Below, in pieces: positions 6,709 to 62,539 of a stretch of 64,000 bases of DNA. Numbering within the stretch: position 1 is the first letter of the stretch; each line of letters starts with the position of its first letter. The position numbers were made by a program, and so were the translations under genes. Location: NCBI RefSeq assembly GCF_037975245.1, contig NC_092580.1, forward strand, positions 32,639,001-32,703,000, in the 5' to 3' direction. This DNA is from Apostichopus japonicus. Lineage: Eukaryota > Echinodermata > Holothuroidea > Aspidochirotida > Stichopodidae. The notes beneath the pieces were generated by a model. It did no database searches. It saw only the letters and a program-made list of their open reading frames with translations, and was not told the DNA's origin.

Positions 6709-8188
6709 TGCATGGTTTGCATGAAAATTATTGCCAAACATGCCTTGAGCACAGATTGCCGGAACTGGTACTTCCCAGGCCTGTTAAGGTGCATCTAAAC
6801 ATTCTTTATTTTGAGATCTCAAGTGTTTGAAATTAGAATAAAAACAGGTAAATTAGAAAACAAAATTATTCGGTAAAATCACTTTGTAGGGGAATTACAG
6901 GACCTTGGGTTACTTTATAAAGCTCTGCTTTATTCATTGTTTTTACGCAAGTAATTGAAGCTATAAAACACGCTAGAGCATTCTGATGGTAGCCGAAGCC
7001 TATATATGCTGAGGGGATGCCATATGGGAATTTTAGGTGTATTACTAAGTTGGCGGTTTGTGTTATCATTATTTGTTTGACATTCCAAAAAGAGACCTAC
7101 TGTGGAGGGGGAGGGGGAAATAAGTGGGTGGTTGGGAGGGGTTGAAAATAAGTGAGTGGGTGGGTTGTGTAGGGGACTTTGCCATGATGTTCCAACTTAA
7201 GACATTGAGGCACTCATATGAGGGTCAACAATGAAACTGATAGGACCTACATAACACATATAGTAATAAAAACGTAATAAACATATTTATGAGCCGTATT
7301 TTCACATTTGAATTCTACAAATTTTAGGAGCTCTGTACGCTTATTGTGATTCTAACAAAACTTGAGACAACCAAAACAAACGCACTGTCATCGAATCCAC
7401 GATCGTGCAGCGTTTAAACTAAACCTAAGAAATGATATGAACATTACGCTAAAACTAAATGAAATAGCTCATTCTGTCCAGGCATTCACATTATCTTAGG
7501 CCTACTTTCATTAAGGAAGTGGAAATCTCAGGGGACATTTATACTGGAAAGGAGATCAGCGATTGCTGCAGGCTTTCATTATCTGGTGGCTTAACAGATA
7601 GCCTCAGCAGTGTATGAGAGTGGTTCCTCACATAAGTTACGCTATAAATGAAATCCGTAATTCTTATTTCAACCCAATTGAAAAGTGCTATTTTTCGTCG
7701 GGGGCTTGAGCAGATGAGAATAAAACATTGATAACTACTAGTCTCATAGCACAATGTTTGAGCTCCCTTTATGAGATACATGTGTCATTATGAGCCTGAT
7801 AGGCCAAGCACCTACACAAGTCCTTCACCATAACCCTGAGGGGAGGGGGGATGGGATTTGATATTGTGTCCCCCACCCTTCAGAAAGTGGGGGACATGTC
7901 CTCCCCCTCCCACCATAATTGATGCCCCTGACCTGGTATATCATTTATTGGCATTAATGACCAATATAATTTGCAGGGATTGATATTACCACTTTAAGTA
8001 TCAAAATTTAATGCAAGTTTATAATGCTCTAGCCTAGACCGTAGTTTCAGTGCAGAAACAATTCATTTGATGTTTTTTGGGGGGCTGATTCATACATATT
8101 TATTATAGGTAGACTTTACTTCATTTCTGTGTCTCATTTACTTGTTTTATTTTTTGTTTCATGAGTAGGTGCAGATCCGCTCATCATT

Positions 8189-24532
<16,344 letters not shown>

Positions 24533-32721: not shown

Positions 32722-33709
32722 TCAAATGCGTGGTTTTGATATGGGGTGTATAGGTAAGCTTGAACACCATTGGTGGTTCCTTTGGTTTAGGTTTGGTATA
32801 GTGAGGTATTGCCCACGGTTTTCGAATTTTATGCCTTTCGTGGCTGAGGCAATTTCCTCTTTCTTATAGTTACGGAGTAACAGTTTCTCTGTGAACGCAT
32901 TCTTTTTCTGTAAGAAATCAGTCTCATTGTTACATAGACGTGCGTATCGTAAGACTTCCCCTTTAATGAAGCCTTTAAAAGTGGCAAGTGGGTGTGCAGA
33001 GTTTCTGTCGAGGTATTGGAAGGTTTCCGTGGGTTTGGTGTAGACTTTGGTGTCTAATAACCCATTGGTTTCAAACCTTGGACCTTTGAAGATTTTCAAA
33101 TCTAGGTATGTTACCTCGGTGTGTAATATTTCTACCGTAAACTTTAAGAAGCGGTGAATTTCATTCAACCTGTTTACTAGTTGTTCAAGTTCCTGATGTG
33201 AACCGTCGTAAAGCAATAGAATTTCATCTCTATAGCGGAGCCATTTTAAGATTTTATTATCTGTCGGTAAAATCTGGTTTTCCAGTCTATGCATGACGAA
33301 ATCACAGATTTCCGGAGAGGCTTGGCTACCCATGGCGCAACCGATCTTTTGTAGATAGAATTGGTTATTGAACTCGAAACAGTTTCTTGTTAAAAATAAG
33401 TTCAATTAGTTTGCGCATGCATGGATATGGAAGATATTTTATTTATTCCATATTCGCTTTTTTCCGCCTTTTCATAGACTTCTTGACATATATCTAATGC
33501 CTCCTCTTGGGGAGTATTGGTATACATGGCGACGACATCGAGTGTAGCAAGTACTACTGCTTTTGGTAACGGGGTGGCTTCCACAATTTTCAGAATGTGA
33601 TTTGTGTCTTTCACATAGGTGCTTTGTTTTAATACAATAGGAAGCAAGAAATAGTCCACAAATTCCGATATTTTTTCGGTCGGTGATCCGTTTCCGCTTA
33701 TTATCGGGC
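32722..33709 (-). pseudogene. Penelope-like reverse transcriptase, frameshifted
   Basis: The frame read from 33709 to about 33402 holds RT motif A (LDVVAMYTN). The frame from 33405 to 32722 holds the motif B region and motif C. Between them the reading frame shifts at least twice (about 33440-33375). Motif C reads RYRDE where active enzymes have a [IV]DD-type core, so one catalytic aspartate is replaced. The chain continues beyond the MITE at 31788-32675 into 31787-31554, where FPKEPILAYKRAQNLKDLL is a typical Penelope linker. The element is inactive on this evidence. Confidence 0.8.
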
Positions 33710-34179
33710 CCTCCCTTAAAAATACTTCAGGTTCTTGGCGACTACGTTGCGTTAGATAGTGTAAAACCGCCTACACCCCCCTTTCATTAAAAAGTATATC
33801 ATAATTATCTCATTGAATATATCTTGTTTTATGTTTTTTCTTGGGGTGAATCTGGTGTCATAATTTTCGCGCAAAAGAAAAAACGAATCGACGCAATAAT
33901 AGTGTATCCATTGTACATGCACTGTTGAGCGTTGTTAAATATGTGTCTATCGAGAAAAAATATGTGCACAAAAAAGCGTGTCTGCAACGTTTCTGGTTTT
34001 TCTAGTTTTTGGCGAAATGTTTCACCATTTTGCATCTAAGCACTCACAATTAACCAAAAATTTCCAAGGGGGAGAGGGACAACCCCTCCCCCTAGACCCC
34101 TCCCCCAGGACGCAGATCACTAAAGTGCTACCATCGGGATGTCGGCCCCCCCTTTCTCAAAATCCTGGATCCGCCCCTG

Positions 34180-36248: not shown

Positions 36249-36600
36249 GTGAAAAGAAAAAGAAAAATGTGAATTCCCAAGGCGCCGATCTACTTGAGTG
36301 AAGTTACGGTCCATGGAACGCCCTTACGAAGGTACTTTGTCTTTTACCCATTTTTGATTGTTTGAAGTCCCAACTTACAACTCATCTTTTTATAATTCAC
36401 TTTAATAACTTTTGTTTGCTTTGACTTACTTTATTCCTTTTATTACTCTGTAGGTATCTCATATTTGTACTTGTTTTACTATATAGTCCCACGTAAAGTG
36501 TTTTGAAATATTATTTTATGTAAAGCGCTATATATAAGTATACATCGTCGTCAAGATCAATATCCCGGTAGTCTATTATTTTACAATTTGTGCATTTATC
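34180..36600. other. Intergenic stretch between the nested elements and the Kazal-type gene
   Basis: No gene is recognised. It holds the MITE at 35210-35862, an orphan hAT-like left end near 35602-35617 (CAAGGGCGTAGCCAGG) and a short (TA)n tract at 36217-36245. Confidence 0.5.
35210..35862. mobile_element. TIR MITE with 8-bp TSD
   Basis: The ends are inverted copies of CAAGGGCGGCGGAA. GCATGGGG occurs directly outside both ends (35202-35209 and 35863-35870). The left end has one extra C between the duplication and the TIR. It is non-coding, with homopolymer G/C near both ends. An orphan end CAAGGGCGTAGCCAGG (about 35602) may be a second element nested inside. Confidence 0.75.
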
Positions 36601-36641
36601 TTCTTCTTTTCTTTGAGGTGGGGCTTAGGAGGGGAGAGTTG

Positions 36642-36660
36642 TTATATTAATTAATAAAAC
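36642..36660 (+). promoter_or_regulatory. Possible TATA region of the Kazal-type gene
   Basis: A TTATATTAATTAATAAAA stretch lies about 65-80 bases before the ATG at 36723. An initiator-like TCAGTC follows at about 36686. Spacing fits a short 5' leader, but AT-rich DNA makes chance matches likely. Confidence 0.3.
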
Positions 36661-36722
36661 TTGTCTCGTGATTTTAAATTCAGAGTCAGTCAGTAGTTTC
36701 CATTCTTCCATGCAGACACAGG

Positions 36723-36792
36723 ATGAAGTTCTTTCTGGTCATGATGCTGTGCCTGTGCGCAAGCGCACTGCCCCAACAGAGGAAGAGAAGGG
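36723..36792 (+). CDS. Kazal-type gene exon 1: signal peptide
   Basis: Encodes residues 1-23 plus one base. ATG is followed by a hydrophobic core with an Ala-Ser-Ala cleavage site and then LPQQRKRR. The donor GTAGGT at 36793 gives phase 1, which fits the acceptor at 40750. Intron 1 is about 4 kb and full of insertions. Confidence 0.7.
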
Positions 36793-39700
36793 GTAGGTAC
36801 AGTTACTGACAGAATTTCACTCTATTATCTGAAGAACTTTGGCAAATGAAACTTAAAAATTGTTGGATATGAAGGTATTATGTCATGTAAAGGCGTAATG
36901 GAACAGCTGGCATGTCTATAGAACTAAAGGCGACGGACAATCTCATAATGTCACCTGAAGTTTTACAAAAATCTAGCACACAGCAAACAGAAGATTGCTA
37001 GACTAAGGAACTCAGTCGTATGTGTTTGTCTTTAACCTGTATCTCTTATACGTTGGTTATAGACATGTACGATCATTGTTACTATGCTTGACCGATCCCT
37101 AGTGCAATATATCAGCTCGTATGTCTTTTAACCTTTATCCTAACTACACTGCACGTTCTCTTGTCTGTTATCTCTTATATACGTTACGTTATATTGTACG
37201 TGTTTTTGTCCCTTCTGTTACTGTTACTTGTCATTTAACCTTTGAAGTAGATCCTGCCAGGTGTTATGAAATAGTAATACTGTCTCTTTGATGTTACCGA
37301 AAAACACCATCGAGACACCTTACAGGCCCCTTATATATTTATCTATAGGTCATGGATTCAGTTTTCCCACGAGAAGTTTTAACAATCTTATTGAATCTTG
37401 TTACAGGGCCTTTTCCCAAAATAGATTCCATTGTGTCTGTAGAACATTCGAGAAAGTGCTTCTCACGTGGTATGGAAGTTTCCATAGAAAGGGGTGGACT
37501 TCCAAACTCCCAACCAATCAGGGCAGATCAGTGCTTTCTAGACTGATATTTATATCGTTAGCTAATACAGGATGGTCAGGTTATTGGCTGCCTTCTGATA
37601 GTGCGCAGTGGGATTTTCGGTGTTGTAATGTATAAAAGGCGGCATGGTCCCGCATGTTCTGCACTCCGTCGTCAGTTCGTCGCTTCGTCACCATTTCATC
37701 ACTCCTTCTAATTGCGTAATTGACGGAGTCAAATCATTGTAATTTTGTTTGTTAGAGAATCGACAGAGAAGAAATTAGTACCGAATCAATAATCAAATCC
37801 TATCTCGTCAACTTGTTTTTGTGAGAACTCATTGTTTTCTTCTATCTTCCGTTCGAGACGTCTCCTGAAGAAGCATAAAATACGGCATCAAGATAACCCC
37901 AGTACCTTTCTATCGCGAGTCCCGATATAGTATTACTATCGGAGGAGCCGGGCTCGTCACAATATTACACAGGATCGAAACGTCAGGCCAACATACTTTT
38001 ACACATTCTTATATAGTCAGGGGCGTATCCAGGATTTTCTAACCCGGGGGGGGGGGGGCGCGAATTACTATCTAAGCGGAGCGCCACCATCGGTTGGCGC
38101 GCAGCGTACAAGAAAATTTCTGGTTTTGATACCCCCTAGATCACCGGAAATGGCAATTCTCGGGCTTGAAAATGACCAACCAGATGTACACTTTTGCCTG
38201 ATAACCAGGTATTTCCCAATAGTTTTTTTTCCAATCCATAACCTTTTTGAAGATTTTCACCAGTCACACATCATGTTCGACCTCATCGCATGTCCTGTGA
38301 ATCATTGCTTTTGTAGGTGATTCTACGTCGCGGCCCACAATACCCGACAGCCCCACTTTTCAAGGTTTTCAGCCCATTATTTGTTCCGAATTATAAATTC
38401 ACTTCAAAACATACGCATAATGTTGCAAAAAATGTCATCTTTGGACAACCAATATAGAAAAACCTCCTTCAACCCCAAACAGACCGGTCAAAATTACACC
38501 AGTAGTGGGAAGTATGATTAAGAATGCTGGTCAGGAAATTTTCGAAAATAATTTATTGGTGTACAAATATTAAACCCTCTTATAACAGCTATTATAAACT
38601 TGGTTGAAGGAAATGAAAAAATACCAGATATTTCCGAAACCGAACACTACACACATAGGCGTAGGAGGCGGGGGGGGGGGGCTCCTACTGAAAGAAAAAT
38701 AAGTTGAAATGATGTAGCTAAAGGAAATGAATCTCCTTGACAATTAAAATAAAGGTTCTAAGCATGGCCGACTAATTCGCCATTACCATGGAGGTAAAAA
38801 CAGACCATTACTAATGTAAAAGCATGGAGGTAAAAACAGATGGTAAAACAGAGAATTTGACATTATTTGACCTCCATGCTTTTACTACATCTACATAAGA
38901 CATTTCGTTGTTTACAATAGCATCCCGCGGTATACTGCGCAATTTCCACTGACCGTACGGTACTTGATGTCATGCGATGTAATAACCGATGCTTGCTTAT
39001 ATGATATTGACCAACATGTTGAACGCGCGCGAAAAATTTAGGATATATTTTTCGGGCAAGTCGTTACAGCCCCCAAATCAAATTGGGTTCCTATGACTGG
39101 AACCGCCATTTACATGCTCATTGATATGATGTCATATCTGCTGTGCTTTACAAATTCGAACAGGCGCGTTTCGAATAATTTTCCAAGGGAGGGGCGAAGC
39201 CTGTAGGCAAACTACCTAAGCGTAGCGCCACCACGAGTTGGCGCGAAGCGTACAAGAAAATTTTGGCCGAAACTGCCTCCCAGATCGCTGGAAATGGCAA
39301 TTCCCAGGACCATGGGTTGGCGCGAAGCGTACAAGAACATTTTGGCCGAAAATGCCTCCCAGATCGCTGGAAATGACACTTCCCATGCCTTGTTAGTTGC
39401 ATCTAAGCATTTCTATTTTGAAATTACTAGCGATATCATAAAAAATATATACTCGGGGGGGGGGGGCGTTCCTCCCCTTCCCGTCATGTTTCCCGACGAC
39501 TCGGTCGAGTTCGAGACCAGCCACAGTTGATTTCATAGCACAATTGTTTAAGGTGTCCATACACACACAAGCGTTATGATAGACCATATATAGTATATAT
39601 ATATAGATACATTAGTGAGAGAGGTAAAATGGAAACGTCAAAAATGGATTTGTCGGTGTAAGGGGTAGGGTGAGGCGCACGCCCTTCCGAAATCCTCGAT

Positions 39701-42700
39701 CCGCCACTGGCTATCCTGTGTATATAATAGGACTCAGCGCTGTAATTATGTCACTGTTCCCCTTCTCTTCCCTTGGCGTTTTTTTTCTTTTACTCCCTCC
39801 TTTTCTCCCTTTTCTCTCTTTCTTCTCTTTCTTTTCCCTTCCTTCCCCTCCTCCTCCTCTTTTCCCCCTCTTTTTTCTTATTTTCTCTCCTCTTTTTCTT
39901 ACCGGGGGGGGGGGGCGCCCCCAACGCCCCCCCTGGATACGCGCCTGTAATACGTTGTTTAATATAGACCTGTGCGATTATTGGTATATGCTTGAAGACC
40001 CCTAGTACAATAGATCAGCTCGTATGTCTTTTAACCTTTATCCTGACTATACTGCACGTTCTCTTGTCTTTATCTCTTATACGTTGTTTCATATAGACAT
40101 ATACGATTATTGTTACTATGCTTAACCGATCCCTAGTGCAATAGATCAGTTCGTATGTGTTTCAACCTTTATCCTGACTATACTGCACGTTCTCTTGTCT
40201 TTAACCTTTATCTCTTATACGTTGTTTCATATAGACATATACGATTATTGTTACTATGCTTAACCGATCCCTAGTGCAATAGATCAGTTCGTATGTATTT
40301 CAACCTTTATCCTGACTATACTGCACGTTCTCTTGTCTTTATCTCGTATACGTTGTTTTATATAGACATGTACGATCATTGTTACTATGCTTAACCGATC
40401 CCTAGTGCACAGGCGCGTAGCCAGGAATTTGCCAAGGGAGGGGCGAAACTGTAGACTCGGCATTGCAAACTATCTAAGCGTAGCGTCACCATGATTGGCG
40501 CGAAGCGTACAAGAAAATTTTGGCTGAAAATGCCCCCCACATCGCTGGAAATGGCACTTCCCAGGCCTTGTAAGTTGCATCTTAGCATTTTCTTTTTTGA
40601 AAATACTAGCGATATCATAAAAACATTAAAAACAATATAAAAAATATGCTCAAGGGGGGGCTTCCCCCTTCGCCCCCCCTTGGCTACGTGCCTTATCCTA
40701 GCTTTATTCTAATTATACTGTACATTCTCTTGTCTTTCTTTGCTTAAAGCAGCGGAAGATTCTGAATCACTAAAGAAAGATTTTGAAAGATTTCTAGAAG
40801 ACACCAATCAGAGAACATCACTCAATGACGTCACTGACAGATGTTCTTCCATTCGTCGAAGATGCGTCGAATCAGGGCAACTTTTCAAACGAAACGTAGT
40901 CTGCGCTAGTAACATGAAAAGATACATGAACTTGTGTCATTTGCAGATAAGGTCATGTGACCTCTTGGAACAATCGGGAGACGAACTCCAACAGAAACGG
41001 TGCCTTTGGATAGAAGTTCCCGACGGTAAGCGTTCGACAAAAAAAAGTATACCCCGTTACTCAAAATGGCCATTTAATAGTTGTCAAGCATGAGAAGAAT
41101 CGACTCCGAGTCAGTGATTCAACTCGACTCCAAGATAAATTGGATCGTTAGATCGAGTCTCTGATACATGATTATGTGAGTTCTCGCTCCTAGTCCTTCT
41201 ATACTCATGGGCAACAGAAGAGATATTCATGCTATCTTGAACTCATTTATTACAACTTTTTTTGTCTTCACTGAAGCATTAAACCTAAATCTGGTACAGC
41301 GAAATACGATACAACTTATCCAACAGTTTGATGCATACAACCACGTGTACAAAATACATCATGTAAACCTATAGCTAATAGATGGTTAGTTAGTTATATC
41401 ATATTACTTTCCACGATAGAAATTCGAGACGGCGGTTAATTCATGGTGGGATATGAACTGCAAAAAAGGAGGAAAGTACACGAAACCCCTCTCTGAAACT
41501 ACAATGTTAGAGCACAAAACAATAACTAAAGGTTTTGATATTTTCAAACAATGTCAGATCCTCTCCCTATACGCTCACCCCATCTACCACTCTCCTGTTC
41601 TCAACCCCTCGTACGTAATACAGTCTCTGTCTTTGAAATATGTGTGGTGTTTAAAGAGAGAGAGAGAGGGGGAGGGGGGTTAAAGGGGGCATTTTTGCAT
41701 TTTTGTTACATTCTACACCATAGTCTGTCTTTAGCTTCTTTTAGTTTCTTGTTTCTGTTACTCAATAACAAGATGGCGATAATGGTGACGACAGCAGTGG
41801 AACAAACAGCAAGGGAACAAGTAGTACAAGTACGGATGAAGATAGTGACGTCACGGGTAGCAATAGTAAGTCCAAGAGTGATGGCAGCAACAGCAAGATG
41901 AGGACTAACGATGAGGATAGCATTGACGGAGAAAGTGAAGGTAAACATCTTCTTTAATACATTTCGTAGAATCTGTAGAAAGTCATATATATCATTAAGC
42001 CGACAACACACTGCCCTACTAGGGTGCAACCACGTTTATTTCTGGGTGTTAAATCCCCAAGGTTTACATAAGCGGTGCTGCTCTCCCCCTCCGGTCACTG
42101 GCAGACAGGATATTACAAACATTTCTTTAACATGCTTATACGGTACAACCTAATTAGTCGAAAATTGTCGAAAATTGTTTCAAGAAATGGCAAAATATAG
42201 CACCATTTTGCATTCTCCATTTTGCATTCTCCAAGCACTCTCCATTTTCCCCAAATTTTTCAGAAGAAAGGGTAACACTCGATTTAGTTCCTTCCCCCTG
42301 GAGGACTGGACACTTTAGCTCCCCCCCCCCACCCACCCGGCCGTCGTATCGTGGAGAGTCTTAGATGGTCTGACAGGGTCACGATTGCAGTGTGCGATGG
42401 TCAAGACAATTGGGGTCAGTCGTACGACGATAGGTTCTTTGGCGATTATCGAAACCTAGCTAGGCTACTACATCCACCCCATCTACCACCTACTGTTCTC
42501 AACCTCTCGTACGTAATGCAGTCTCTGTCATTAAAATGTGTGTGATGTTTAAAATGGGGGGGGGGGGAGTAAAGGGGGAGGGGAGAAGTTTCATTGTCAT
42601 TTTTTTCATTTTTGTTACATTCTACACCATAGTCTGTCTTTAGCTTCTTTTAGTTTCTTGTTTCTGTTACTCAATAACAAGATGGCGATAGTGGTGACGA

Positions 42701-43991
42701 CAGCAGTGGGACAAACAGCAAGGGAACAAATAGTAAAAGTAAGGATGAAGATAGTGACGTCACGGGTAGCAATAGTAAGTCCAAGAGTGATAGCAGCGGC
42801 AGCAAGATGAGGACTAACGATGAAGATAGCATTGACGGAGAAAGTGAAGGTAAACATCTTTTTTTATACATACCGTAGAATCTGTAAAAAGTCATATATA
42901 TCATTAAGCCGACAACACACTGCCCTACTACGGTGCAACCACGTATATTTCTGGGGTTAAATCTCCCAGGTTTACATCAGCTGGGCTGCCCTCCTCCTCC
43001 GGTCACTGGCAGACAGGATATTACAAACATTTCTAGTGCATAAATATATAATATGCTTATACGGTACAACCTAATCAGTCGAAAATTGTGTCAAGAAATG
43101 GCAAAATATAGCACCATTTAGCATCTAAGCACCCTCCATTTTACACACATATCTCAATAGAAGGGGGGAACACTATCTTTAGTTCCTTCCCCTGGACAAC
43201 TGGACAATTTCGCTCCCACAGTTTTAGTGCTGAAAAATATAACATGCTTTTACGGTAAAACCTTATCATTCTAAATTTGTTTCCAGAAATGGCAAAATAT
43301 AGCACTATTTTGCATCTAAGCACTCTCCATTTTACCCAAATTTCTCAAAAGAAGGAGGAACACTATCTTTAGTTCCTTCCCCTGGAGGGCTGGACACTTT
43401 AGCTTCCCCACCCACCCCCCATCCCCGACCGTCGTAACGTGGAGAATCTCAGATGGTCTGACAGGGTCACGATTGCATTCTGCGAGGGTCACGACGACTG
43501 GGGTTAGTCGTACGACGATAGGTTCTTTTGCGATTATCAAAACCTAGCAAGGCTACTACATTCACCCCATCTACCACCCTACTGTTCTCAACCCCTCGTA
43601 CGTAATGCAGTCTCTGTCTTTGAAATATGTGTGTGAAAGGGGGAGGTAAAAGGGGGGGGGGGTGGGGAGAAGTTTCATTGTCATTTTTTCATGTTTGTTA
43701 CATTCTATACCATAGTCTCTATACCATAGTCTGTCTTTATCTTCTATTTGTTTCTTGTTTCTGTTTCTCAATAACAAGATGGCGATAATGGTGACGACAG
43801 CAGCGGGAGAAACAGCAAGGGAACAAATAGTAAAAGTAAGGATGAAGATAGTGACGTCACGGGTAGCAATAGTAAGTCCAAGAGTGATAGCAGCGGCAGC
43901 AAGATGAGGACTAGCGATGAAGATCAAGGTGTGACGAGCGGTAACGAATATGTGACGAAAATTGACGGAAAAAGTGAAGGTAAACATCATA

Positions 43992-44029
<38 letters not shown>

Positions 44030-47000
44030 TTAAGCCGACAACACACTGCCCTGCTGATCGCGGCGATCTGACGGGTGGGGCGCAGCCATGTATATTTCTG
44101 GGGGCTCAATTCCTCAGGTTTACATCAGTGGGACTACATTCCCCCCTCTCTGGCAGCGAGAATATTACAACATTTCTAGTGTATAAATATATAACATGCT
44201 TATACGGTACAACCTTAACAGTCGGTCGTTAATTGTTTCAAAAAGTTGCAAAATATAGCACCATATTGCATCTTAGCGCCCTCTACTAATTTACCCAAAT
44301 ATCTCAAAAGAGGGGGCTAAGTCCCTCAGGTTTACATCAATGGGGCTACCCCCTCCCCCTCACTAGCAGACATGATATTACAACATTTCTAGTGTATAAA
44401 TATATCACATGCTTATACGGTACAACCTTAACAGTCGTTCGGAAATTGTTTCAAAAAGTTGCAAAAAATAACACAATTTTGCATCTATGCACTCTTCATT
44501 TTACCCAAATTTCAAATTTTTCAAATGAAGGGGATAACACTATCCTTAGATCCCTCCACTTGGCGAATTGACACTTTACCTCCCCCCTCCCTGTCTCAAC
44601 GTGGGGAGTCTTAGATTGTCGGACAGGGTCATTATCGCTTACGATCACCACTAATCAAGACTGACCCAGTATTGATTCGCGTCTGCTTCAGTCGTAGAAA
44701 ACAACATGTATCGTTTTCCCGACTGGCAGACTACATTGTGCGAGGGTCACGACGATTGTGGTCGGTCTTACGACGATAATAGGTTCGTTGGCGATGATAA
44801 TAACCTAGCTAGGATACTATATATACATTCACCCCATCTACCACCCTACTGTTCTCAAACCCTCGTAGGTAATGCAGCCTCTGTCTTTGACATGTGTGGG
44901 TGTTAAGTAGGGGGAAAAAAGTTTCATTTCCAATAATAATAATATTAAAGTGAAAACGTTATGCTAACATACATTGCGATATACCATCCAGGGTCGTATT
45001 TACTTTGTTATGAGAATGGCATGGCACAGGCAGACAGCTAAGCTACTACATTCAATATGAGCTGGGTCTTTTCCGTCTTGTTGTTGTTTAGTCGGATTGT
45101 ATAAACGGTCGGCTTTCTATTGTATTGATGCTGAAACTCCAACACAATATTCGCATTAATCACCCACTGATCAAGTGTCCCATGTGTCCCAAACAGTGAA
45201 AGGCAAAAATCGTCACGCAGTTTTCATTCTCAGATATAAAGATTTATATAGATATTTCAGACCAATATCGCAAATTGTGATTTTGTGTTTTTTTAATCCT
45301 AAAGGTCGCAGCAGCTCAGAGATTACATTTACTTCAAATTATGAAGATGTCTCTTTGATATGTGAGTTTTTTTTTAAGGATCAGTAGTCAGAGGCAGTAC
45401 ATTTGAGTCCGTCAGGGGGGGCATTCGTCCCCCTGACTATATGGACGCTCCGCCACTGCCCACCACCAAACCAAAGCACACCCCCCTTCTTCCCGCTTCA
45501 GTCCTCATCCCATGTTTTCTAACGAATAAACTTTTCCTTATCTCTTTAAAATTAGTCTCAAGCAGTGATGAAGAAGATGTTTTCACTCCTACAGGTAAGA
45601 GGCACTCCTCCTCTCTTCTGCTCCCCTCCCCCACCCTCTCTCTATCTCTCTATATGTCTTTCACTCAAGTCCACTCCATCAAGTAGAATAAACATTATGC
45701 GATTTCATCGTATAGGTCTAGGTATCATACATGAACTATATTCAAGCTTTTGATTTCATTTTATTTTTCAAAACTATTTTTTCACTCTTTTTTTAATAAA
45801 ACGTTATGAAATATTCTAAAGCCTCAATTCTTGTGTGAAAACATTATTTTTTTTACTTTCCTTACTTATAAATGTATATATTATGCAATGACGTCACTTT
45901 TTTAAGGCCTGTTTTTCATTCATAGTAGTATTTTGAACTTAGAATGACCAATGAGAAACTTCCCCATCTTCTGAACAAAAAATGTTCAAGTTTTTTCCAA
46001 ATATTTTTTTTACTGCAGGTAACGATAGGGATACGGATGGTAATATAGGTAAGTCAAAGTGAAATGTTAATGTATGTTATCAGGTTGTCATGGTAATTAA
46101 AATGTATATGCTAAAATGATGCTAGATGGGAAATTAGTAACAGTGATATAGTTAAACTGTTTACGCATGCGCAATACTGTTAACGCTATGGCGGACAGAA
46201 GGCTTCCATTTGGAAGCAGGACACTTCGCCCAACAACCATTTCGCCCAACTGCCATTTCGCCCAACCTTACCATTTCGCCCAACCAGCCTGGTCATTTCG
46301 CCCAACCAGCCTGGTCATTTCGCCCAACCAGCCTGGTCATTTCGCCCAACCAGCCTGGTCATTTCGCCCAACCTTGATTAAATATGATACTTCAAAAGGA
46401 AACGTTCGGGAATTGTTAAAGTTACAGGATACGAACAGAATATTAAGGAATCTTGAGGATAGATCAGTGTTTTAGGAGTTAGTGCGGGTAGGTTCGATAG
46501 TAAACGTTCGGGAATTATTAACGTTACGGGTTACGAACCGAGTATTATAAGGAAACTTGAAGTCGTGGTTAAATTGATTACATATGTGGTTACATTGATA
46601 AGGTGGTTACATTGATTAATTATAGTACTTCAATATTACGGACGGGTTTTATATATATATATTTTTTTCAATTTAATAAGGAAACGTTCGGGAATTGTTA
46701 GTCAGTAGGATGGATCAGTGTTTAAGGGGTAAGGTTTGAAAGGTTTTTATGAAGACCGATTCCCCTGTGTTTGTATAATAATATAACTTCCATTGTATGC
46801 GTAAACGCCTAAAGTAGTGTAATCCTCCCATTATACCCGAAATAACTGCTCAGACTTTGATCGATATCGAGCGGACCTCACTTTTTTCATTTACCTATTA
46901 CGAAGTAACCTAATCCAAAATAAATCAAATTGAACTAGTGGAATAGAAAAAGTAATATTATTCTGACTGAATATTAGAAAAAATAAGGTTGGGCGAAATG

Positions 47001-47690
47001 ACCAGGCTGGTTGGGCGAAATGACCAGGCTGGTTGGGCGAAATGACCAGGCTGGTTGGGCGAAATGGCAGTTGGGCGAAATGGTTGTTGGGCGAAGTGAC
47101 TAGAAAGCATATAAACTTAGTGGTAAAACCGATGCTACTTTGTTTCATTTTTCCTTCCCCGTTTTTTCTGAAATTTCGTCAAGTCACTTATTTTACGACA
47201 CTGAGTTCGTGCTTGGTACCATCTTCAAAATTTATGAAAAAGATTATGACGGCTTATAAATCTGTATAAATATACGGGATACGCAAAAAACCAAGGCTGT
47301 AGCTGACCCAGAGAGACCTTACATAGACTTCGCACTCATCCTATTATATTGCTATTTTATCAATGAGTGAAAACAATTCCAAGGTAACAGGTAGCACAAA
47401 GGGGCATGACTTCTCCAACTCTATCTCTCACACCTGATCGGATAGACCAGTGATATAAATAGCACCTCTCTGGATATACCATGGAAATGCCATGTTTACA
47501 CTTTCAAGATCTACTGAGACCCCCCCCCCCCTCCCCTTCTTCAGCACGTCCCTATACTGTCTCCATTATACGCTTTCCAATGCATGGAACTATCTGGTAC
47601 ATTGCGTTTACAGGCTTTAACCGGTTGGTATTTATCAATTTTATCGACTGTATTTCTTTTTCTTTCTTTGAAGGAGACTTTCATCAGTGA
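36723..47690 (+). CDS. Secreted Kazal-like protein with acidic Ser/Asp-rich tail
   Basis: Predicted exons: 36723-36792, 40750-41025, 41773-41940, 42682-42849, 43779-43979, 45305-45361 (candidate), 45556-45594, 46019-46048 and 47674-47690. All have GT-AG borders, all junctions are phase 1, and the result is about 341 residues. Residues 1-15 form a signal peptide (MKFFLVMMLCLCASA), followed by a basic QQRKRR that may be a furin site. Cysteines 55, 62, 75, 86, 93 and 108 have Kazal/follistatin spacing (10 residues between Cys3 and Cys4, 6 between Cys4 and Cys5) and VCAS..YMNLC resembles the Kazal core. Residues 116-336 are Ser, Asp, Gly and Lys rich with S-x-E and SSSDEED motifs, possible sites for secretory (FAM20C-like) or CK2-like kinases. 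I do not recognise a named family; a secreted inhibitor-like or matrix protein is the inference. Splicing is unconfirmed. Confidence 0.72.
36985..37210 (+). repeat. First part of a 130-bp tandem array in intron 1
   Basis: Contains the unit landmarks CTCTTATACGTTG, ACGAT.ATTGTTACTATGCTT, GACCGATCCCTAGTGCAATA, CAGCTCGTATGTCTTTTAAC and CTGCACGTTCTCTTGTC. The same unit recurs at 39948-40408, so an array has probably been split by insertions. Confidence 0.7.
37262..37969 (+). mobile_element. Solo LTR of an LTR retrotransposon
   Basis: 708 bases begin TGTTATGAAAT and end ATATTACA, flanked by the 4-bp direct repeat CAGG (37258-37261 and 37970-37973). A strong TATAAAAGG at 37631-37639 and a TCAGTTCG initiator-like site about 35 bases on are what an LTR promoter should have. 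No internal region or second LTR is present, which suggests loss by recombination. A 4-bp repeat can arise by chance. Confidence 0.6.
38018..39947. mobile_element. Cluster of degraded hAT-like ends
   Basis: Ends seen: CAGGGGCGTATCCAGG at 38018-38033, CATAGGCGTAGGAGG at 38654-38668, CAGGCGCGTTTCG at 39161, CCTCGATCCGCCACTG ending at 39709, and CCTGGATACGCGCCTG at 39932-39947. The first and last match as inverted repeats at 15 of 16 bases but lack matching flanks. Inside, 39180-39420 has two copies of GTTGGCGCGAAGCGTACAAG. Boundaries are unresolved. A pyrimidine-rich run (39755-39900) gives spurious frames. Confidence 0.45.
39948..40749 (+). repeat. Main part of the 130-bp tandem array in intron 1
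   Basis: Units start near 39967, 40096, 40234 and 40365 (129, 138 and 131 bases apart) with ATATAGACAT.TACGAT.ATTG. The last unit is split by a MITE at 40409-40694 and resumes with TTATCCTAGCTTTATTCT up to the exon 2 acceptor. Confidence 0.85.
40409..40694. mobile_element. MITE inserted in the tandem array
   Basis: Left end CAGGCGCGTAGCCAGG and right end CTTGGCTACGTGCCT are imperfect inverted repeats. The insertion splits a repeat unit exactly after CCCTAGTGCA. The interior (AAGCGTAGCGTCACCA, GGCGCGAAGCGTACAAG, GTTGCATCT) is shared with the element near 39161. No clean 8-bp duplication was found. Confidence 0.65.
40750..41025 (+). CDS. Kazal-type gene exon 2: Kazal/follistatin-like domain
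   Basis: Encodes residues 24-115. An acidic helical lead (SESLKKDFERFLEDTNQ) precedes six cysteines spaced 6, 12, 10, 6 and 14 residues apart. Spacing from Cys3 to Cys5 agrees with Kazal domains, while the Cys1-Cys2 spacing and the replaced G in the usual CGSDG core are atypical. The acceptor is TTAAAG and the donor GTAAGC, both phase 1. Confidence 0.8.
41773..41940 (+). CDS. Kazal-type gene acidic exon, copy A
   Basis: 168 bases, phase 1 at both ends, residues about 116-171, from DGDNGDDSSGTNSKG to DEDSIDGESE. Very rich in Ser, Asp, Gly and Lys. The acceptor AACAAG has a weak pyrimidine tract in all three copies. The donor is GTAAAC. Antisense frames across it are shadows. Confidence 0.78.
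42682..42849 (+). CDS. Kazal-type gene acidic exon, copy B
   Basis: 168 bases, same length and phase as copy A, and differing from it at only a few codons (for example N to S and T to N/K changes). It lies 909 bases downstream of copy A, and the surrounding intron sequence is duplicated too. Most differences from copy A change residues while Ser/Asp richness is kept. Confidence 0.78.
43779..43979 (+). CDS. Kazal-type gene acidic exon, copy C
   Basis: 201 bases, phase 1 at both ends. It matches copy B through KMRT.DED, then gains an 11-codon in-frame insertion (QGVTSGNEYVT) before the shared DGKSE end. The added 33 bases keep the frame, consistent with selection on coding. A (TA)n tract follows in the intron near 43996-44025. 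Confidence 0.78.
45305..45361 (+). CDS. Candidate short exon of the Kazal-type gene
   Basis: 57 bases between a T-rich acceptor (TTTTTTTAATCCTAAAG) and a strong donor GTGAGT. It is phase 1 at both ends and open in frame: GRSSSEITFTSNYEDVSLI. Including or skipping it leaves the frame of the gene intact. It is supported only by splice signals and phase agreement. Confidence 0.5.
45556..46048 (+). CDS. Two short acidic exons of the Kazal-type gene
   Basis: 45556-45594 (39 bases) encodes SSSDEEDVFTPT with acceptor ATTAG and donor GTAAGA. 46019-46048 (30 bases) encodes GNDRDTDGNI with acceptor CTGCAG and donor GTAAGT. Both are symmetric phase 1 and keep the Ser/Asp/Glu bias of the copied exons. 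Exons this small are weak individually; consistent phase is the main support. Confidence 0.62.
46222..47098. mobile_element. Foldback element with GCCCAAC subterminal repeats
   Basis: Left arm 46222-46375: CACTTCGCCCAACAACCATT, then ATTTCGCCCAACTGCC, then several tandem 22-base units of TCATTTCGCCCAACCAGCC type. Right arm 46987-47098 is the inverted complement in mirrored order and ends GTTGGGCGAAGTG. The interior (about 600 bases) is non-coding. No target duplication was identified. It lies in the intron between 46048 and 47674. Confidence 0.85.
47674..47690 (+). CDS. Kazal-type gene last coding exon, version 1
   Basis: After acceptor TTTGAAG, phase 1 reading gives GDFHQ and a TGA. The exon seems to continue to a donor GTAAAT at 47703, only 12 bases past the stop, so the next exon would be 3' non-coding and nonsense decay is not expected. 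Confidence 0.5.
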
Positions 47691-48278
47691 AATCGTGAAA
47701 AGGTAAATTTAATAGTAATGATAGCATATATATATAAGGAAAAGTCGTTGGGCACGTGATCTCGAGACCTGATGTTGCTGCACACACCATAACTGTGAGT
47801 TAATTTGAAAGAATCATTTGAATTTACAATTTCTTTTCACGAGCAAAGGTACTGAATATACATGTTATATAGGCCTATAGGTAATTACATTCTGCTATGT
47901 TCTTAGTACATTAGTGTAGTCTTACAGAAAACTGACTGTTAGAACTATTAAAGTGAAATTAACTTACTCTGATATCTGAATGAAAATCGGCAGACCTGAA
48001 TACGCGTTTAAGAGATATACGTGTGCTTATGTGTGTTAGTGTGTGTGATTCTGTATGTGTGTGCGCCTACAATCAACCCACTGGAAAAAGGAAGACATTT
48101 CCATGGTTACGGTGCCAGATAAAACTAACATGTCCATAATTTTCAATGAGACTAAACTTAAGGTAGTATCTATATATAGACTTTCAGCTACACGTCAATT
48201 TTAATGACATAAGCAACAATTGAAAATATGAACTTCTGTCTAGCCTTGAAAGAAAATACTTTCTTTTTATTTCCACAG

Positions 48279-48331
48279 AATCGACAGACGAACCGGAGAA
48301 GGCCCATTACATAATTCATTACAACATTTAA
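48279..48331 (+). CDS. Kazal-type gene alternative last coding exon
   Basis: If 47674-47702 is skipped, the acceptor TTCCACAG at 48278 joins 46048 in phase 1 and adds ESTDEPEKAHYIIHYNI before TAA. The same exon serves as 3' UTR in version 1. An AATAAA follows at 48493-48498. Confidence 0.45.
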
Positions 48332-48492: not shown

Positions 48493-48498
48493 AATAAA
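48493..48498 (+). promoter_or_regulatory. Candidate poly(A) signal of the Kazal-type gene
   Basis: AATAAA about 160 bases after the alternative stop codon, in an AT-rich stretch suitable for a 3' UTR. Confidence 0.5.
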
Positions 48499-61932: not shown

Positions 61933-62092
61933 GTAAACGTTTCGATCCTAGCTTGTCCATCTTCAGAGGAAGACGAAAGCGAAGACAGAAAAGGGACACA
62001 AGTAACTTAGACGGACGGACAAGTTAATTGAACATTGAACACTGAATAGAGTTGAAATATAAAATCTGTCTCAAGCAGTTTGGTGACAATTA

Positions 62093-62412
62093 CTCACTCT
62101 CCACCCATCTCTATGCACCTCTCTCTATCTCTGCAACTCTCTCTGCACCTCTCTCCACGCACCTCTCTCCTGCACCTCTCTGCACCTCCTTCTCTCTCCA
62201 CCTCTCTGCACCCATCTCTCCATCTCTCCATCTCTGCACCTCTCTGCACCTCTCTGCACCCCTCTCCACCCACCTGCACCTCTCTTCACGCCTCTCTCCA
62301 TGCACCTCTCTCCTGCACCTCTCTCTCTCCACCTGCACCTCTCTTCACGCCTCTCTCCATGCACCTCCCTCCTGCACCTCTCTCACTCTCTATCTCTCGG
62401 CACCTCACGTCT
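62093..62412 (+). repeat. Pyrimidine-rich CTCTCTGCACC tandem repeat
   Basis: Imperfect CTCTCTGCACCTCTC/CTCCACC units occupy about 320 bases with almost no purine except in GCA. A 54-base higher-order unit (CTCTTCACGCCTCTCTCC..) occurs twice near the end. Frames on either strand are repeat artefacts. Confidence 0.85.
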
Positions 62413-62539
62413 CTCTAGCATGAATCCTGTACAAAGTACTCTTCCCATCCCAAACCGCTTGTAAACCGCATAGGAAAGTTGTGTCTCCGGGATACGGTGC
62501 ACATTTCCACCAGCTGCAAGTGCAATGGATTATGATTTG

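Follow-up and report, generated by a model that had tools for sequence, protein, structure and literature searches.

The 64,000-nt stretch of Apostichopus japonicus DNA analysed here (contig NC_092580.1, positions 32,639,001 to 32,703,000; referred to below as the window) very probably harbors a real gene for a secreted protein that combines a Kazal domain with an acidic tail, and the gene is of interest chiefly because the multiplication of one exon can be seen in it. A chain of nine exons on the + strand (36723-48331) joins into an open frame of 353 aa that ends with TAA, and all eight introns have GT-AG borders and lie in phase 1, which bears out an earlier reading of this DNA from its letters alone (the sequence-only reading) that had the modules joined in this phase. 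The predicted protein begins with a signal peptide and an RKRR site, followed by a single six-Cys domain and an acidic tail of 238 aa (Table 1). By analogy with the echinoderm proteins discussed below, we take this combination of a Kazal domain and a copied-exon tail most likely to be secreted, open to phosphorylation and able to bind matrix or mineral, a reading to which we assign a probability of about 0.5.

Table 1. Features of the proposed gene, numbered along the window.
Feature	Position	Strand	Remarks
TATA-like stretch (possible promoter)	36650..36660	+	starts 73 nt before the ATG; likeness judged by eye
Exon 1: ATG, signal peptide MKFFLVMMLCLCASA, then LPQQRKRR	36723..36792	+	ends in phase 1
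Exon 2, 276 nt, phase 1-1: Kazal domain with six Cys	40750..41025	+	Pfam Kazal_2 match
Exon 3, 168 nt, phase 1-1: first copy (copy 1) of the acidic Ser/Asp/Gly exon	41773..41940	+	
Exon 4, 168 nt: second copy of the acidic exon	42682..42849	+	protein identity to copy 1, 89%
Exon 5, 201 nt: third copy of the acidic exon	43779..43979	+	carries the 33-nt in-frame extra stretch
Exon 6: RSSSEITFTSNYEDVSLI	45305..45361	+	
Exon 7: SSSDEED, entirely inside the exon	45556..45594	+	
Exon 8: NDRDTDGNI	46019..46048	+	
Last exon, with TAA	48279..48331	+	rivals at 47545 and 47674
AATAAA polyadenylation-like signal	48493..48498	+	162 nt 3' of the stop
ATTAAA, second polyadenylation-like signal	48542	+	

The start of exon 1 looks like a signal peptide, as had been claimed, and its stretch FFLVMMLCLCA has a mean Kyte-Doolittle hydropathy of 2.9. 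Cleavage would presumably follow A-S-A, and RKRR is taken to be a furin-like site, both by general rules; the codon after RKRR is split by intron 1. To grade the exon borders, we scored splice sites with a matrix of general consensus values, in which the exon 1 donor ranked in the top 1.8% of 3752 GT sites and the exon 2 acceptor and donor in the top 3.7 and 0.75%, and the acceptors of acidic exons 3, 4 and 5 were weak, ranking no better than the top 55, 55 and 37% of 3602 AG sites. Exon 6 (acceptor top 6.0%, donor top 3.7%), exon 8 (top 1.1 and 0.45%) and the acceptor of the last exon (top 0.22%) ranked high on the same scale. The exon 7 acceptor at 45556 was weak (top 30%), with a score of -3.3 vs 7.8 for a rival acceptor at 45502, which would give an exon of 93 nt with 18 further, mostly hydrophobic residues. 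Five possible terminal acceptors scored at least 4 (47545, 47674, 48279, 48605 and 48756), the last two lying 3' of the AATAAA at 48493. The later exons are less sure than the early ones, as the exon 7 acceptor and the last exon have rivals. A search of intron 1, intron 2 and the last intron for additional phase 1-1 exons of 27-399 nt (acceptor ≥0, donor ≥3) returned none.

The HMM search of exon 2 against Kazal profiles that the sequence-only reading had proposed gave 24.8 bits with Pfam Kazal_2 (PF07648), above the gathering cut-off of 22.8; in the whole 353-aa protein the same model scored 22.3 bits, 0.5 bit under the cut-off, and the match begins at profile position 14 of 48. The remaining Pfam matches of exon 2 (Kazal_CFAI, Kazal_1 and DUF4332) were each under their own cut-off. 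When the peptide was shuffled with its cysteines fixed, none of nine shuffles matched any Kazal model in a search asked up to E 10, in which HMMER filters discard most matches above about E 0.1, and so the cysteines alone do not produce the match. The hallmark of a Kazal domain is six Cys with a C-x6-Y-x3-C core; the exon 2 peptide has Cys at 31, 38, 51, 62, 69 and 84 (spacing 6, 12, 10, 6, 14) and contains this core as CASNMKRYMNLC. A search of PDB sequences up to E 10 returned a single, non-significant match, FSTL1 (6jza, E 0.37), whose alignment with exon 2 shares a VC-x6-Y-x3-C-x6-C core. Searching the window for further copies of exon 2 gave itself and four short matches (E 0.04-0.5), each with a stop. 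In classical Kazal inhibitors the second and third Cys enclose a reactive-site loop of 7 residues, whereas in exon 2 this loop is 12 residues long and Glu occupies the second residue after the second Cys, the usual P1; a binding domain would thus be likelier than a working inhibitor.

Exons 3-5 are tandem copies of one another, spaced 909 and 1097 nt, a feature absent from the sequence-only reading. The exon copies differ pairwise at 9, 14 and 7 of 168 aligned bases (4-8%) and their flanks differ more, by 12-17% upstream and 19-28% downstream (exon vs flank, one-sided Fisher p = 7e-6, 3e-6 and 2e-9 for three pairs that are not independent and whose gap-rich flank alignment may inflate the flank differences). 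All three copies keep acceptor, donor and phase, and because an in-frame stop ends 4 nt 5' of each exon, only a CAAG acceptor fits them. The sole change of exon length between copies is 33 nt, in frame. Judging from these copies, the tail appears to have grown through tandem duplication of a single phase 1-1 exon. We rejected the idea that the three copies reveal selection on the protein, as the changes are too few and no frame is favoured: among changed codons 6/8, 9/12 and 5/6 alter the amino acid, dN/dS is about 0.5-0.7 from very few changes, and two antisense frames are also open through the copies (the third compared minus its 33 nt), amino-acid-changing codons being slightly less frequent in one of these frames (5/8, 8/12 and 3/7). 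Since most changed codons alter the residue and an antisense frame is comparable, the copies show no selection on protein, and gene conversion or DNA-level constraint could also keep them alike. Searching the window with the acidic exon recovered, besides its three copies, a single weak match (E 0.25). At 44734-44904 lies a fourth, partial copy of the unit from which the exon itself is absent, suggesting that copies were both gained and lost in the past.

The whole 353-aa model has a pI of 4.45, the 330 aa after RKRR a pI of 4.33, and the 238-aa tail a pI of 4.11 with 59 D+E, 25 K+R and 56 S. Serine makes up 24% and aspartate 17% of the tail, exons 3-5 being rich in Ser/Asp/Gly/Asn, and Ala and Pro are each at most 5%. 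The acidic Ser/Asp/Gly tail described by the sequence-only reading thus stands, together with the SSSDEED motif, which is present within exon 7, but its emphasis on S-x-E was overstated, with 3 such sites in the protein vs 24 S/T-x-x-D/E sites, 22 of which are in the tail. Neither an N-glycosylation sequon nor an RGD was found in the protein. The tail is probably disordered, since it falls on the disordered side of the charge-hydropathy boundary (H 0.328 vs a boundary of 0.465).

The claim that this order of parts matches no nameable family does not survive comparison with the sea urchin tooth matrix, where signal peptide, Kazal domain and acidic blocks are published for Glean3:17589 and 17590, with the Kazal domain after the signal peptide (PMC2614417). 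According to the sections of that report on this group, all five proteins have a signal peptide and four of them one or two Kazal domains, the domain being absent from 17587; 22278 contains an additional set of Kazal domains and ends in DEED-like repeats (PMC2614417). The models Glean3:17587-17590 are from S. purpuratus and bear consecutive numbers. The group is described there as having a global pI of 4-5 and as alternating acidic Gly/Ser-rich blocks (Gly-rich, and in 17590 often Ser-rich) with neutral or basic Ala/Pro-rich blocks of 17-21% Pro and 14-25% Ala (PMC2614417). The likeness to our gene, i.e., signal peptide, Kazal domain, acidic blocks and low pI (here 4.45), is one of layout only; Ala/Pro-rich blocks are absent here and, unlike in the urchin proteins, the core of the tail is a multiplied exon. 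By its layout, it is plausible that the gene is a variant of the sea urchin Kazal/acidic tooth-matrix kind and not a new kind. Phosphopeptides are listed for 17588 and 17590/22278 in a work that also lists a FAM20C-like protein, the two phosphopeptides of 17590/22278 being Ala/Pro-rich and from no clearly acidic blocks (PMC2830187). Phosphodontin, likewise a secreted acidic repeat phosphoprotein of the sea urchin tooth, differs in having thirty-five 11-12-residue EISSGEGEQPK-type repeats, and the passages describing it mention no Kazal domain (PMC2830187). The sea star skeletal proteome, as summarized in its report, includes one Kazal protein but no acidic repeat stretches comparable to those in the spicule matrix proteins of urchins, and this disfavours a general echinoderm rule (PMC5460417). 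Among the literature matches listed, titles and abstract openings held no description of this gene.

Two further comparisons were drawn with families that the gene resembles in part. A follistatin (FS) domain joins an EGF-like half to a Kazal half with 10 Cys, and in the SPARC family an acidic region comes first and an EF-hand extracellular calcium domain follows FS. Exon 2 has 6 Cys and no EGF-like Pfam match, no EF-hand Pfam match was found in the 353-aa model at E 0.1, and the acidic tail here comes after the Kazal domain; the six-Cys domain earlier called Kazal/follistatin-type is therefore upheld as Kazal and corresponds to follistatin in its Kazal half only. The SCPP/SIBLING proteins of vertebrates, such as DSPP and DMP1, are acidic Ser/Asp-rich secreted proteins encoded on small symmetric exons. 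Introns of vertebrate SCPP genes are stated to be virtually all in phase 0 (PMC6732285), whereas the eight introns here are all in phase 1 and a Kazal domain is present; SCPP membership was ruled out by intron phase, and any likeness would be convergent.

An error in the exon chain itself, with exon 2 being part of a short Kazal gene and the acidic repeats being either non-coding or part of a different transcript, would agree with the weak acidic-exon acceptors, the open antisense frames and the absent selection signal. We regard this as improbable, given that the three copies keep acceptor, donor, phase and open frame while their flanks differ more, that their phase fits exon 2, and that phase-1 candidate exons in 43980-48278 number 8 on the + strand vs 2 on the - strand, a count in which several candidates share sites and the thresholds were derived from the proposed exons themselves. 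The eight comprise 3 proposed exons, 4 that overlap them and a separate one (46681-46728). Candidates of other phases in the same region were 2 (+) and 4 (-) for phase 0 and 0 (+) and 1 (-) for phase 2, and the whole window held 45 phase-1 candidates on the + and 20 on the - strand.

Accepting the chain, the Kazal domain might be a true serine-protease inhibitor that guards the secreted matrix or fluid and is merely localised by the tail. The matched Pfam model is named for Kazal-type serine protease inhibitors, and Kazal proteins of shells are generally interpreted as protective inhibitors in the account of PMC8217771; the long loop, the Glu at the usual P1 and a Pfam match that starts only at profile position 14 make such a role unlikely here. 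A follistatin-like (FSTL) or SPARC-lineage ligand binder, acting on TGF-beta/BMP or collagen with a secondary acidic tail, draws on FSTL1 being the sole solved-structure match and on the shared C-x6-Y-x3-C-x6-C core, but an E-value of 0.37 and the missing EF-hand and EGF-like matches leave it an improbable reading as well. The preferred reading of a matrix- or mineral-binding phosphoprotein draws on the open phase-1 chain, the Kazal_2 match of exon 2, the acidic tail with its S/T-x-x-D/E sites and predicted disorder, the closeness of the exon copies, and the tooth-matrix proteins with their phosphopeptides and the FAM20C-like protein. Points that count against it are the 3 S-x-E sites, the 25 K+R in the tail, the weak acidic-exon acceptors, the whole-protein Kazal score just under the cut-off, the missing selection signal in the copies, the Ala/Pro-rich nature of the 17590/22278 phosphopeptides and the sea star proteome.

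Under this preferred reading, the signal peptide would be removed after ASA and a furin-type protease would trim the protein at RKRR, whereupon the Kazal domain would fold and dock to a partner, more likely a protein of the matrix or a growth factor than a protease. Casein-kinase-like secretory kinases would phosphorylate the tail, which would stay disordered and may bind calcium or nascent mineral or cross-link matrix, and copying of the phase 1-1 exon would alter tail length and charge with the frame unharmed. The sequence-only reading had offered a role in matrix, mineral or protease control; a secreted Kazal protein with a phosphorylatable-looking tail is borne out, and analogy makes a function in mineral or matrix plausible. 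More tentatively, the gene could encode a lineage-specific phosphoprotein of mineral or matrix control that arose when phase-1 exon shuffling brought a non-inhibitory Kazal domain together with an acidic exon, the latter multiplying afterwards; this would be an independent route, convergent with that of the phase-0 SCPP genes of vertebrates. Biomineral and matrix proteins often evolve too fast for ordinary homology searches, and a gene whose acidic part has visibly lengthened through copies of a single phase 1-1 exon would capture one stage of such growth; the copied exon would also allow copy number to be compared among individuals and between related species whose skeletons differ.

Elsewhere in the window, pieces of an upstream RNA-helicase-like gene, possibly MOV10L1-like, were found on the + strand at 8165-24532, with an S1-like domain (8165-8998) and an AAA_11 piece (19242-19556) recognized by Pfam; its frame 23471-24529 matched no Pfam family and the S1-like frame matched no PDB sequence. 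A reverse-transcriptase remnant, Penelope-like by eye, lies in two pieces and different frames on the - strand (32722-33770); RVT_1 scored 27.0 bits on 32722-33402, under its cut-off of 29.6, and further Pfam names for these pieces, far under cut-off, were read as chance. Low-complexity Ser/Leu/Pro/His-rich frames, open in all three + frames at 62046-62464, are a simple repeat and not a gene. Rfam and tRNA scans found nothing, none of seven viral contig matches by pattern was confirmed, and a scan of 36500-36800 for bacterial promoters and terminators, a type unsuited to animals, was empty. Within the gene, intron 1 contains a tandem array of 131-nt units (39950-40409, 3.5 copies), and a piece related to it was seen by eye near 37030-37200. 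The last intron carries an insertion-like element at 46200-47105 (outer limits by eye) that consists largely of 22-nt tandem units and has 82-nt inverted arms, 100% complementary and 609 nt apart; its appearance is that of a young foldback or MITE-type element.
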